From Actinobacteria bacterium IMCC19121 (GTDB lineage Bacteria; Actinomycetota; Actinomycetes; Nanopelagicales; Nanopelagicaceae): 64,000 bases of DNA. Under the pieces are notes generated by a model. It was not told where the DNA came from. It saw only the letters and a program-made list of their open reading frames with translations, and ran no database searches. Each line of letters starts with the position of its first letter. The first letter of the stretch is position 1. Both the position numbers and the translations under genes were made by a program. The DNA lies in the NCBI GenBank assembly GCA_002284895.1, contig CP015605.1:930001-994000 (forward strand), read 5' to 3'. Positions 35,720-40,213 of the stretch are shown here, in pieces.

Positions 35720-37159
35720 ATGCGTAGAGCAAAGATCGTGTGCACGATGGGCCCTGCAGTCGAATCTGCTGAGAAGGTTAAAGAGCTCATTGATGCTGGC
35801 ATGAATATGGCGCGCTTGAATCTCTCTCACGGTTCATATGAAGAACACCAAGCACGTCTTGATAGCGTTCGAGATGCCGCCAAAGCCGCGGGTCGCCCCG
35901 TTGCAATTCTTGTCGATCTGCAAGGACCAAAGATTCGCTTGGCTCTCTTTAAGGCAGGACCACATGATTTAGCACGTGGTGACATATTTACAATTACAGT
36001 TGATGAAGTTGAAGGTACAAAAGAACGCGTTGGAACAACGTATAAAGGTTTACCAGGAGATTGCAAAGCTGGAGATCGTATTCTTATCGATGATGGAAAA
36101 GTAACTGTTGAAGTTGTTGAAGTTAAGGGCAATGATGTTGTCACTAAAGTTATCGAACCTGGGGCAGTGAGCAATAACAAGGGAATTAACTTGCCAGGTG
36201 TTGCAGTCTCTGTTCCTGCCCTATCTGAAAAAGATATTGACGACCTTCGCTGGGGCTTGCGAGCAGGAGCTGATTTCATCGCTCTCTCATTTGTTAGAAG
36301 CGCAGAAGATATTAAGGATGTCCATAAAATCATGGATGAAGAAGGTATTCGAGTTCCAGTTATTGCAAAGATTGAAAAGCCACAAGCAGTTGAAAATTTA
36401 GTTGAAATTGTTGATGCCTTCGATGGCATCATGGTTGCACGAGGTGATCTTGGTGTGGAGCTACCTATTGAAGATGTGCCATTGGTGCAAAAACAATGTG
36501 TCGAATTAGCTCGCGATATGGCTAAGCCGGTAATTGTTGCAACTCAGATGCTTGATTCCATGATCACTAATTCGCGCCCCACTCGCGCTGAAGCAACAGA
36601 TTGCGCAAACGCAGTTCTAGATGGCGCAGATGCGCTGATGCTCTCAGGTGAAACGAGTGTCGGTGACTTTGCAATTGAAGCTGTTCAGACAATGGCGCGC
36701 ATTATTCAAAAGACTGAAGAGGGCGGCTTAGACCGAATTCGTCCAATAAAGACAGCTCCACGAACTAAAGGTGGAGCAATAACAAAGGCAGCAACCGAGG
36801 TCGGAGCAATCGTTGGGGCAAAGTATTTGGTGGCCTTTACACAAAGTGGAGATTCAGCACGACGTATGTCGCGATTGCGCTCACCAATTCCTATTCTTGC
36901 CATGACTCCAGAAGTTGGAACATATAACCGTCTCGCACTTTCTTGGGGTGTTGAATCAATGCTTACTCCAATTGTTGTCGCAACCGATGAAATGGTGAAG
37001 TTGGTTGACACAGTCCTAATTGATTCTGGTCGCGCTCAATTAGGTGATCAAGTGATGATTGTTGCCGGATCTCCTCCTGGAATTCCAGGTTCAACGAATG
37101 CGATGCGCGTTCACCGCGTGGGAGATGCTGTTGGTGGGGTAGCTGCGGCTTACCGCTAA
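35720..37159 (+). CDS. pyk: Pyruvate kinase
   Basis: A 479-residue glycolytic enzyme converting PEP and ADP to pyruvate and ATP. The N-terminus RRAKIVCTMGPAVESAEKVKELIDAGMNMARLNLSHG is diagnostic. The active-site segment is PVIAKIEKPQAVENL with MVARGDLGVELP, and the C-terminal domain has VGAKYLVAFTQSGDSARRMSRLR. A GGTAGG-type ribosome site precedes the ATG, nine bases after gltD. The stop is 28 bases before the CAA tRNA. Confidence 0.97.
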   Translation: MRRAKIVCTMGPAVESAEKVKELIDAGMNMARLNLSHGSYEEHQARLDSVRDAAKAAGRPVAILVDLQGPKIRLALFKAGPHDLARGDIFTITVDEVEGTKERVGTTYKGLPGDCKAGDRILIDDGKVTVEVVEVKGNDVVTKVIEPGAVSNNKGINLPGVAVSVPALSEKDIDDLRWGLRAGADFIALSFVRSAEDIKDVHKIMDEEGIRVPVIAKIEKPQAVENLVEIVDAFDGIMVARGDLGVELPIEDVPLVQKQCVELARDMAKPVIVATQMLDSMITNSRPTRAEATDCANAVLDGADALMLSGETSVGDFAIEAVQTMARIIQKTEEGGLDRIRPIKTAPRTKGGAITKAATEVGAIVGAKYLVAFTQSGDSARRMSRLRSPIPILAMTPEVGTYNRLALSWGVESMLTPIVVATDEMVKLVDTVLIDSGRAQLGDQVMIVAGSPPGIPGSTNAMRVHRVGDAVGGVAAAYR

Positions 37160-37187
37160 GATTAAGCCCGTTCGGCAATTACTTAAC

Positions 37188-37260
37188 GCCTCGGTACTCC
37201 AACGGTAGAGAGGGCAGTCTCAAACACTGCACAGTGTCGGTTCAAATCCGACTCGGGGCA
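37188..37260 (+). tRNA. tRNA with anticodon CAA (leucine by codon) and a short, class-I-size variable loop
   Basis: A 73-base cloverleaf. Acceptor GCCTCGG pairs with TCGGGGC (two G-U pairs); D-stem CTC/GAG; anticodon stem GCAGT/ACTGC around loop CTCAAAC with CAA at 37221-37223; variable loop ACAGT of five bases; T-arm GTCGG/CCGAC around TTCAAAT; discriminator A73; no encoded CCA. The three-pair D-stem and GGTAGA D-loop resemble tRNA-Leu, but bacterial tRNA-Leu normally has a long variable arm, which is absent. A possible -10 TAAGAT at 37157-37162 overlaps the end of pyk. The next gene starts one base downstream. Confidence 0.85.
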
Positions 37261-37261
37261 C

Positions 37262-37843
37262 ATGACACAAAAGGTTCGCATCCTCGTTGCCGAAGATGAA
37301 GCGCTTATTCGCATGGACTTAGTTGAGATGTTGCAAGGTGCTGGATATGTGGTTGTAGCAGAGGCAACTAATGGCCAAGAGGCAATTGACTTAGCAAATG
37401 AACATAAACCAGATTTAGCAATTCTTGATGTGAAGATGCCTGTGCTAGATGGAATTTCTGCAGCAGAAAAAATTATTGATCTTGCACCTGTATTAATGTT
37501 GACAGCTTTCTCTCAGAAAGAATTAGTTGATAGAGCCCGTGATGCTGGAGTAATGGCATATGTAGTTAAACCATTCACAGTTGGAGATTTGATTCCTGCA
37601 ATTGAAATCGCAATTAGTCGTCACACTCAGATGCGCTCACTTGCTGCAGAGGTTGCAGATTTACATGATCGATTAGAGACACGAAAGATTATTGATAGGG
37701 CAAAAGGTATTTTGATGAAGGCGCTTAATCTTTCAGAGCCCGAAGCATTTTCTTGGATTCAAAGAGCGGCCATGGACCGCCGATTAACGATGAAACAAGT
37801 TGCCGAAGCCGTCATTAGCCCAGAGGCTGTACCCGAGAGCTAG
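37262..37843 (+). CDS. pdtaR: PdtaR-like ANTAR response regulator
   Basis: A 193-residue cytoplasmic regulator. The receiver domain (1-120) has E11/D12, phosphoacceptor D56 in LAILDVKMPVLDG, T81 and K103 in VVKPF. A coiled linker leads to a C-terminal ANTAR domain (about 130-190) with RKIIDRAKGILMKALNLSEPEAFSWIQRAAMDRRLTMKQVAE, which binds RNA hairpins and acts as antiterminator in the family. The cognate kinase is not in this window. The ATG lies two bases beyond the last base of the tRNA, so there is no Shine-Dalgarno and no ordinary leader. Confidence 0.92.
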   Translation: MTQKVRILVAEDEALIRMDLVEMLQGAGYVVVAEATNGQEAIDLANEHKPDLAILDVKMPVLDGISAAEKIIDLAPVLMLTAFSQKELVDRARDAGVMAYVVKPFTVGDLIPAIEIAISRHTQMRSLAAEVADLHDRLETRKIIDRAKGILMKALNLSEPEAFSWIQRAAMDRRLTMKQVAEAVISPEAVPES

Positions 37844-37911
37844 TAATCGTCCTCCTGCCTAAAACGTTACATAAATGCAACCAAAGCAGGGCTTTTCATG
37901 CTCAATCGGGC

Positions 37912-37964
37912 TTGTGAATAGGTCATCGATGCCATTACCCTAACCACCTCCCTGTCCCGGGACA
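37912..37964 (+). promoter_or_regulatory. livK1 promoter with a 12-bp palindrome
   Basis: TTGTGA (37912-37917), 18-bp spacer, TACCCT (37936-37941), then TGTCCCGGGACA (37953-37964), a perfect 12-bp palindrome located at about +5 to +17. The same elements with identical spacing occur before livK2. The palindrome may be an operator or an RNA element. A ribosome site AGGAAAGG lies at 37972-37979. A 5-bp repeat CCTGT/ACAGG (37951-37955, 37970-37974) could partly cover it. Confidence 0.65.
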
Positions 37965-37985
37965 CAAGAACAGGAAAGGCACTAA

Positions 37986-39134
37986 ATGAACAAGAAAATC
38001 AAGAGTTCACTTGCCGTTGTATCTGCTGCAGCCCTTGCCTTTGGCATTGCATCAGTACCAACAGCTAGTGCAGCTGCTAAGACTTACACAATCGGTTACC
38101 AAGGCCCACTTTCAGGTGGAGAAGCATCAACAGGTATCGATGAGCAAAACGCAGTTAAGTATGCAATCAAACTATTCGAAGCAAAGAACCCAGGTTTCAA
38201 GATCAAGCTCGTTTCAATCGATGACCAGGGAGATCCAGCAGTAGCTGGAACAGTTGCTCCAGGTGTTGCTTCAAACAAGAACGTTCTTGGCGTTGTAGGA
38301 CCTGCTTACTCAGGTGCAACAATTGCTTCACTTCCATATTACAAGTCAGTAAACATGGCGTTGATCTCACCATCAGCAACACGCGTGTCACTAACTGACC
38401 CAACATCACCTGACTTTGGTGGACCAATTTTCCACCGCGTCGTAGGTAAAGATGACCTTCAGGGTCCAGCTTTGGCTAAGTACGCAACAGCAGGCGTTTC
38501 AGCTGCAAAGGTTTTCGTTTTCGATGACCAATCAGCATACGCAGTACCTCTTCGTGGCTTCGTTGAAGCTGGTTTGAAGAAGGTTTCTGGAGCAACACTT
38601 GTTGGCGGAGACTCAGTTCCAAACACAACAACAGACTTCAGCCCAACGATTGCAAAGATCAAGACATCTGGCGCAACTGTTGTTATCTACACTGGTTACT
38701 ACAGCCAAGCTGCTGTATTCATCAAGCAGCTTCGTGACTCAGGTTCAAAGGTTGTATTTGCTGGTGGCGACGGAGTGTTCAACCAGGAGTTCCCAAAGCT
38801 TGCAGGAGCTGCAGCTGAAGGTTCAAAGGTTACTGGCGTTGGCGGACTTGCTGGCGTAGATGCAAAGATGGAAGCTGACTTCAAGAAGAAGATGGGCGTT
38901 TCATCTGGTGTTTACTCAGTTGAGTCATTCGATGCTGCAAACATCTTGCTAGCTGGAATCAAGGCTGGAAAGACAACACGTACAGCGATGCTTGCTTATG
39001 TAAATGCATATAGCGGTAAGAGCATCTCTGGAAACACAATTAAGTTCGATAAGAATGGCGACATTTCATACGGACTATTTGCTGGTTTCACAACTAAGAA
39101 TGGTGTACTAGTTAACACAGGAATCATCAAGTAA
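37986..39134 (+). CDS. livK: LivK-type substrate-binding protein, copy 1
   Basis: A 382-residue type I periplasmic-binding-fold protein (Leu/Ile/Val-binding family). Residues 1-31 are a Sec signal peptide ending in PTASAAA, with Ala-x-Ala-type cleavage and no lipobox cysteine. The mature part begins KTYTIGYQGPLSGGEASTGIDEQNAVKYAI and contains LVSIDDQGDPAVA and VVGPAYSGATIASLPYYKSV. It should capture a branched-chain or related amino acid for the LivHMGF transporter that follows. ACA and TCA codons look favoured, in keeping with high expression. It precedes livH1 by 128 bp containing a long hairpin. Confidence 0.92.
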   Translation: MNKKIKSSLAVVSAAALAFGIASVPTASAAAKTYTIGYQGPLSGGEASTGIDEQNAVKYAIKLFEAKNPGFKIKLVSIDDQGDPAVAGTVAPGVASNKNVLGVVGPAYSGATIASLPYYKSVNMALISPSATRVSLTDPTSPDFGGPIFHRVVGKDDLQGPALAKYATAGVSAAKVFVFDDQSAYAVPLRGFVEAGLKKVSGATLVGGDSVPNTTTDFSPTIAKIKTSGATVVIYTGYYSQAAVFIKQLRDSGSKVVFAGGDGVFNQEFPKLAGAAAEGSKVTGVGGLAGVDAKMEADFKKKMGVSSGVYSVESFDAANILLAGIKAGKTTRTAMLAYVNAYSGKSISGNTIKFDKNGDISYGLFAGFTTKNGVLVNTGIIK

Positions 39135-39160
39135 TTAACTAGGACAAACGCGTAACAAGA

Positions 39161-39209
39161 TGGTGGGTGTTTTGGAAAACTCTTGAAAAAGAGACCGAAA
39201 CACCCACCA
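39161..39209 (+). other. Intercistronic hairpin between livK1 and livH1
   Basis: TGGTGGGTGTTT (39161-39172) and AAACACCCACCA (39198-39209) are perfect inverted repeats, and the stem extends inward through a T-G pair and two G-C pairs. The loop holds a second small hairpin, CTCTT-GAAA-AAGAG. No T-tract follows, so it is not a standard Rho-independent terminator. A likely role is to stabilise the upstream livK mRNA and lower permease expression. Confidence 0.75.
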
Positions 39210-39262
39210 CTTGCGTAACTTCTACCTTTATACTCGCGCAGAGGCATTAGCGAAGGAGAACA

Positions 39263-40213
39263 ATGTTTGCAGTATTAATTGATCAGTTCTGGTCGCTGAC
39301 AATTGCAGGAATCGCCCTTGGATTTATCTATGTTTTGATCTCCCTCGGTTACACCATGGTTTATGGAGTGCTACGCATGATTAACTTTGCGAACTCTGAA
39401 ATCTTTATGTGGGGAACATTTGGAACAGTAATTACTTCTCGCGATATTTTTCATTACACGCAAACTTCAGAACCAGCAAAAGGCGCAAAATTGGTCTTAG
39501 TTTTAGTTACTAGTTTGTTGATGTCAATGTTGGTTGCCGGTCTTACGGCAGTATTTGTTGAATTCGTTGCTTATCGTCGCCTTCGAATGAAGGGCACGAA
39601 TCGTCTTGCAACTCTGATTTCTGCAATCGGTATCTCAATTGCTTTGCAAGAGATTATGCGTCTTCTAACCCATTCACGACCAGTAGGAGCACCACGCATT
39701 CTCGAAAAAATAATCTTAACTGAGGTATGGGGCGCAAACATTCGCCTCGACACAGTAATTACAATTATTGCAGCTGCTCTTATCTTCTTTATTCTTGAGC
39801 GCTTTATTAAGTTATCTCGAATGGGTAAAGCTATTCGCGCTGTATCAATGAATGAAGATGCAGCAAAACTCATGGGTGTAAACCTGAACCGTGTGATCAC
39901 CACAACATTTCTTGTGGGTGGATTAGCAACAGGTGCAGCTGGCTTCTTCTACATCACTGTTTTTGAATACACTAAATTTAATATTGGCTTCACAATGGGT
40001 ATGGCTGCATTTACCGCAGCAGTGCTGGGTGGAATTGGAAATATCAGAGGCGCTTTCTTCGGTGGGCTTAGTCTTGGACTTCTTGAGGTATATGCCTCCG
40101 CAGTGCTTGGCACTCAGTGGAAGGCTGTAACTGTTTTCATCGTCTTAGTTCTTGTTCTTCTCTTCAAGCCAAATGGTCTATTTGGCGAAGCCGTCCAGAC
40201 AACGAGGGCATAA
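39263..40213 (+). CDS. livH: LivH-type ABC permease, copy 1
   Basis: A 316-residue inner-membrane permease of the branched-chain amino acid family. The N-terminus FWSLTIAGIALGFIYVLISLGYTMVYGVLRMINFANSE is the family signature, and VLGGIGNIRGAFFGGLSLGLLE near residue 258 is the EAA-like coupling region. About eight membrane helices are apparent. GAAGGAG precedes the ATG. A short loop around YTQTSEPAKGAK distinguishes it from many LivH proteins but is shared in form by copy 2. Confidence 0.94.
   Translation: MFAVLIDQFWSLTIAGIALGFIYVLISLGYTMVYGVLRMINFANSEIFMWGTFGTVITSRDIFHYTQTSEPAKGAKLVLVLVTSLLMSMLVAGLTAVFVEFVAYRRLRMKGTNRLATLISAIGISIALQEIMRLLTHSRPVGAPRILEKIILTEVWGANIRLDTVITIIAAALIFFILERFIKLSRMGKAIRAVSMNEDAAKLMGVNLNRVITTTFLVGGLATGAAGFFYITVFEYTKFNIGFTMGMAAFTAAVLGGIGNIRGAFFGGLSLGLLEVYASAVLGTQWKAVTVFIVLVLVLLFKPNGLFGEAVQTTRA

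Follow-up and report, generated by a model that had tools for sequence, protein, structure and literature searches.

In mitochondrial tRNA punctuation, mRNAs are released by the action of RNase P and ELAC2/RNase Z. This is the nearest known kind of system to the bacterial locus described here, where a tRNA likewise abuts a start codon, its excision would make the 5' end of the mRNA, and little or no leader would remain. Unlike the mitochondrial case, the host is a free-living freshwater actinobacterium, a minority of genes is concerned, no RNase Z is recognised, the proposed cut leaves C74 on the tRNA, and the release of the mRNA is predicted from sequence. The leaderless mRNAs of actinobacteria (mycobacteria, P. 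acnes, S. coelicolor) also carry an RTG at or beside the 5' end without a Shine-Dalgarno (SD) sequence, although here the acceptor stem of the tRNA-Leu scores as a weak one, and a matching -10 is found at outgroup regulators; their 5' end, however, is set by transcription initiation, and here it is probably set by tRNA processing. In mycobacteria, an RTG at the 5' end is reported to suffice for translation (PMC4633059). CCA-encoding tRNAs of P. acnes (PMC3848588) and S. coelicolor (PMC4681348) are described as cut between C74 and C75, and a cut at that site would here start the RNA at RTG itself; the available parts of the two reports link no downstream coding gene to these cuts. Leaderless mRNAs are likewise generated by an endonuclease in the case of MazF, described as a stress toxin that cuts mRNA leaders with no tRNA involved, unlike here (PMC3848588). 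Among the open-access titles and abstract openings listed, no bacterial leaderless mRNA of the tRNA-punctuation type is described, which is weak evidence of absence.

The window, that is, the whole stretch of 64,000 nucleotides that was analysed, covers positions 930001-994000 of a single-contig genome of 1,506,415 bases. The sequence-only reading had placed a tRNA discriminator base at 37260, a single C at 37261 and the ATG of an ANTAR regulator at 37262-37264. This geometry is confirmed by the bases themselves (G37188 to C37259, followed by the discriminator A37260, the C and the ATG), by ARAGORN, which calls the tRNA-Leu(CAA) at 37188-37261, and by the Rfam RF00005 match, with 50.2 bits against a gathering score of 29 (Table 1). 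All other Rfam matches at the locus fall far below their own gathering scores. The downstream ORF encodes a receiver domain (PF00072, 1.2e-25) and then an ANTAR domain (PF03861, 5.5e-23), which fits a PdtaR-like ANTAR response regulator. The gap between tRNA and regulator leaves no space for a terminator, and a simple scan for sigma-70 promoters and terminators returned none of either in 36900-38100. Since that scan found no promoter, the TAAGAT motif, which overlaps the stop codon of the pyruvate kinase gene, is given as a putative -10. Folding of the precursor yields an uninformative result, a non-cloverleaf minimum with a z-score of 0.47. On the 3' side of the regulator, positions 37986-40213 hold a periplasmic binding protein gene (Peripla_BP_6) and a permease-like ORF; the position of a leucine tRNA next to what may be genes for a branched-chain amino-acid transporter may not be a coincidence.

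Table 1. Features at the tRNA-regulator junction (positions in the window).
Feature	Position	Strand	Basis
Pyruvate kinase gene	35720..37159	+	PF00224, 3.6e-119; ORF end 37159
TAAGAT, putative -10 of the tRNA-regulator transcript	37157..37162	+	sequence; putative
tRNA-Leu(CAA), short variable loop	37188..37260	+	ARAGORN, Rfam RF00005; position 73 = A37260
Encoded C74, sole base separating tRNA and start codon	37261..37261	+	sequence; cut proposed on one side of it
PdtaR-like response regulator (receiver plus ANTAR, 193 aa); message proposed to be leaderless	37262..37843	+	ORF list, Pfam

The choice of ATG 37262 as the start of the regulator, made from the sequence of this locus, holds up. No in-frame ATG/GTG/TTG lies between the preceding stop codon and this ATG, which is the sole one ahead of the receiver core; the next, Met18, falls within the receiver domain. 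In the relatives, the RTG is in frame at 122/122 scorable family junctions, that is, those paired with a regulator match (3/125 junctions could not be paired and are outside this count). In 49 of the 59 distinct one-base contexts the RTG is the only in-frame ATG/GTG/TTG ahead of the core; the other 10 have one more. ATG is swapped for GTG in a good number of family genomes, and the RTG stays beside the tRNA while its distance from the first aligned residue ranges between 0 and 29 codons.

A search pattern combining a tRNA 3' end, C and RTG finds the A73-C-RTG junction in 123/151 family genomes, 75/84 high-quality ones and 13/17 genera, and the same pattern read backwards gives no match across the 151 genomes. 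Comparison of the tRNA-regulator spacing in related genomes, a check proposed with the sequence-only reading, thus finds the single base kept in most of them. Seventeen family genomes have a listed regulator and no pattern match. Ten of these have a divergent tRNA (genera g6, g13 and g15; nine by ARAGORN, and L077 read from a cut sequence), five have a longer spacer (all in genus g1: L036, L040-L042, L055), and two are of other kinds. In genome G149 the one-base junction is present and was missed owing to a T-loop variant; in G048 the sequence stops at a contig edge. The remaining pattern-negative genomes are without a full-length regulator match in the regulator list. A second sample, which overlaps the first and comprises 52 loci with upstream sequence assigned to the family by similarity, shows a codirectional tRNA at 52/52 nearest loci, at offset 1 in 42 and with longer spacers in 10. 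At one longer-spacer locus (L142) the C-ATG is retained, yet it begins an ORF of just seven codons whose end lies a short way upstream of the regulator's GTG, possibly a leaderless upstream ORF or a sequencing error. Some record titles look wrong, with Nanopelagicaceae-like regulator loci on contigs titled Bifidobacterium breve and an actinobacterial one on a contig titled Vibrio cholerae 35D (L118, L120, L134, L135, L148, L163, L164, L190). Because the genomes share ancestry, these counts are not independent events, so that recurrence of the junction with different tRNAs and genes is the stronger argument.

We consider it probable that the tRNA and the regulator form one unit, in which an endonuclease frees the tRNA 3' end, likely after C74, and the downstream RNA is translated leaderless. 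Transcription of the unit would start upstream of the tRNA, and RNase P would free the tRNA 5' end. The endonuclease would cut most likely just after the encoded C74, leaving a downstream RNA that begins exactly with AUG or GUG, or one base earlier if the cut precedes C74. The released RNA would be translated as a leaderless mRNA, which is a normal mode in actinobacteria, and a nucleotidyltransferase would complete the CCA of the tRNA. The idea that tRNA maturation releases the regulator mRNA, as in punctuation, is retained in part: an abutting junction precedes a leaderless-type gene, is conserved and recurrent, and has no leaderless-type -10 within the tRNA. The assignment of the cut to RNase Z is doubtful, and the cut may follow C74 and leave no leader.

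The tRNA itself is predicted to have 73 nt and a five-base variable loop, without the class II long variable arm of canonical bacterial tRNA-Leu. A pseudo-tRNA was considered and rejected: of the 38 tRNAs identified in this genome it alone has the anticodon CAA, it adjoins the same gene in most outgroup loci, and its anticodon stem varies in paired fashion among relatives. Short-arm and long-arm forms at this locus among actinobacteria number 14 and 14 of 28 in one set and 7 and 18 of 25 in another. One genus even has both forms, long in L084 and short in L085, and the tRNA-Leu(UAA) elsewhere in the present genome is likewise without a long variable arm. C74 is encoded by 38/38 tRNA genes of this genome, C75 by 12/38 and the full CCA by 9/38, which points to a need for C74 in 3' processing or in recognition by RNase P. 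The base is also present in 208/208 contexts examined, many of them related, in 28/28 and 25/25 tRNAs of two outgroup sets that consist almost wholly of tRNA-Leu(CAA), and in 8/8 from g6, g13 and g15. C74 may, however, be kept for pairing with RNase P RNA, which counts against the reading that we prefer.

RNase Z is the standard route for tRNAs without CCA in many bacteria, and the geometry would suit a cut after A73; both count for the original model, in which RNase Z would cleave directly behind the discriminator, so that one base remains as a leader. We regard this as unlikely. A TIGR02651 profile search of the genome gives only ComEC, at 24.9 bits, a PF12706 search gives only RNase J, ComEC and a small Lactamase_B (metallo-beta-lactamase) protein, and in seven other family genomes the best RNase Z match has an E-value of 8.0e-6 or is missing. 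Full-length matches above 240 bits occur in six other families of the class; a divergent RNase Z could be missed, since 0/118 class genomes reach the curated cut-off of the model. As far as the available text of the reports goes, P. acnes is said to be without an obvious tRNase Z (PMC3848588) and S. coelicolor possesses a tRNase Z homologue (PMC4681348). The S. coelicolor tRNAs without CCA are described as cut within a few nucleotides downstream of their end (PMC4681348), which counts against a cut at C74, and a cut before C74 is favoured by M. smegmatis, where over 90% of mapped cuts are reported to have C at +1 (PMC6448022). On balance, we judge a cut after C74 somewhat more probable than one before it.

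The arrangement extends to other tRNA-gene pairs. In this genome, an ORF starts at offset 1 after 2/38 tRNAs, Leu-pdtaR and Arg(TCT)-orn, and at offset 4 or less after 5/38, the others being Ala(GGC)-leuS and Glu(CTC)-LysE-type gene at offset 3 and Ala(TGC)-cyclophilin gene ppiA at offset 4. The orn gene (G000:C1:724667-725397; L004 / L211) lies between the tRNA-Arg(TCT), one base upstream, and a downstream tRNA-His, forming a tRNA-mRNA-tRNA array. Among relatives, offset 1 is found at 3/30 orn loci, the only three where tRNA-Arg adjoined orn, at 7/30 Ala(GGC) loci (three of them before leuS, four before an SDR gene) and at 7/30 Ala(TGC)-ppiA loci; the genes at the Ala junctions were identified by Pfam for L257, L260 and L273 and by likeness for the rest. 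Within the family, the pattern set further includes Leu(GAG)-apt, Lys-EamA, Met-S-methyltransferase, Pro-CDP-alcohol transferase and Asn-ACT protein, each in one genome among those read. Outside the family, Val(TAC)-C-RTG-Nif3 occurs in two families, with four genomes in all, and Gln(TTG)-C-RTG-glmU in three genomes that belong to a single family, in a pattern set selected for C and RTG and with L303 and L340 assigned by likeness. Several genes in one genome thus appear to be served by abutting tRNAs, as tRNA punctuation demands.

Across the class, the pattern matches in 106/148 genomes, and a tally of rows gives about 199 matches, compared with about 32 when the pattern is read backwards; it is preselected for C and RTG and also matches non-genes. 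Among 50 loci examined (30 tool-given, 20 hand-picked), 12/35 tRNA-C-RTG junctions open ORFs of fewer than 70 codons, and some of the longer ORFs in GC-rich genomes may be chance, so our argument uses those that recur or have a family match. The distribution of offsets was taken from the protein-fetched loci and the tRNAs of the genome itself, using the first in-frame ATG/GTG of ORFs of at least 120 codons. Such an ORF starts within 70 bases in 154/208 distinct contexts, those with less than 400 bases downstream having been dropped. The first starts lie at offsets 1 (76), 3 (3), 4 (4), 8 (1), 10 (1) and at least 16 (69), and none of the 154 lies at 0, 2 or 5-7; offsets 8 and 10 (L124, L163) are spurious starts, and L274, at 16, probably is too. 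The in-frame family junctions (122/122), together with the offsets in this genome, are more than chance.

These data bear on the idea that the one-base gap arose by chance as genomes became compact and was inherited from a single event, with no special mechanism. The genomes are small and compact, and most of the 123 may descend from one event, yet the same offset recurs with several other tRNA-gene pairs, in other families too, and offsets pile up at 1, with none at 0, 2 or 5-7; an accident of this kind is improbable. Since the one-base junction recurs with other tRNAs and genes, tRNA trimming probably makes the start of the message.

The claim that no SD sequence is possible at this junction was too strong. 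The 3' strand of the Leu acceptor stem reads GGGG here and GAGG in most relatives, three bases before the ATG, and as a result all 59 Leu one-base junctions score between -4.5 and -5.3 kcal/mol against the anti-SD. Starts at offset 16 or more have a mean of -6.1 kcal/mol, with 51/69 at -4.5 or lower, compared to a mean of -2.7 kcal/mol and 21% at -4.5 or lower for background 17-mers. The Leu scores speak for a second mechanism, in which an uncut transcript is translated from the acceptor GAGG/GGGG as SD in an unfolded tRNA, so that tRNA and message would be alternative fates of the transcript; in addition, without RNase Z, exonucleases might make the 3' end and destroy the message. The spacing to the RTG is just three bases, however, the strand is paired in the folded tRNA, and the other one-base junctions are without such a site (0 for Ala(GGC), 0 to -2.7 for Ala(TGC) and -2.5 kcal/mol for Arg), which makes this mechanism very unlikely.

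In the outgroup families, tRNA-Leu(CAA) adjoins the same regulator gene but is divergent in 50/57 loci; two loci are without a tRNA call, and the five codirectional ones (L082, L180, L184, L187, L189) all have long-arm tRNAs and none lies at one base, the scripted offset of 1 for L189 being a spurious start. A TANNNT at the -10 distance of a leaderless start precedes the regulator in 47/64 loci, where shuffles predict 2.8; this set joins g6, g13 and g15 to the outgroups and omits three cut loci. At the same distance, TANNNT is found at 0/76 one-base junctions and at 2/69 starts with spacers of at least 16 bases. Upstream of the tRNA, TANNNT occurs within 45 bases in 74/75 related contexts against 41.7 expected from shuffles. 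A promoter within the tRNA, giving a primary leaderless message whose first bases are the start codon of the regulator, would agree with the frequency of such transcripts in actinobacteria, as described in the available parts of four reports (PMC3848588, PMC4681348, PMC4633059, PMC6448022), and with the primary-leaderless look of the outgroup regulators, but is highly improbable because the motif is found at none of the 76 junctions, in a region, T-arm plus acceptor, that is constrained by the tRNA.

Given the -10 at 47/64 outgroup-type loci and at 0/76 one-base junctions, the tRNA seems to have taken the place of the promoter before the regulator. The simplest reading would be a rearrangement, perhaps an inversion, by which the tRNA came to separate the regulator from its promoter. 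Ancestrally, the regulator probably had a promoter of its own that gave a leaderless message, next to a divergent tRNA; within this clade, the tRNA would have turned codirectional, displaced the promoter and taken over the making of the 5' end.

A wider proposal, which we put forward tentatively, is that actinomycetes in general cut tRNA 3' ends after an encoded C74 by an endonuclease and that genes have repeatedly settled at this site, so that each maturation may release an mRNA that begins precisely at its start codon. The result would be tRNA punctuation in bacteria, linking the genes for the regulator, for an RNase and for a tRNA synthetase, among others, to the supply and processing of tRNAs. 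If tRNA maturation does act at these junctions as we propose, a free-living bacterium would make mRNA 5' ends at genes that need no promoter and no ribosome binding site of their own. The encoded C74 and the C74-RTG junctions would then offer a genomic handle on the actinobacterial tRNA 3' endonuclease seen in RNA maps, and the regulator, together with translation genes, would be coupled to tRNA processing.
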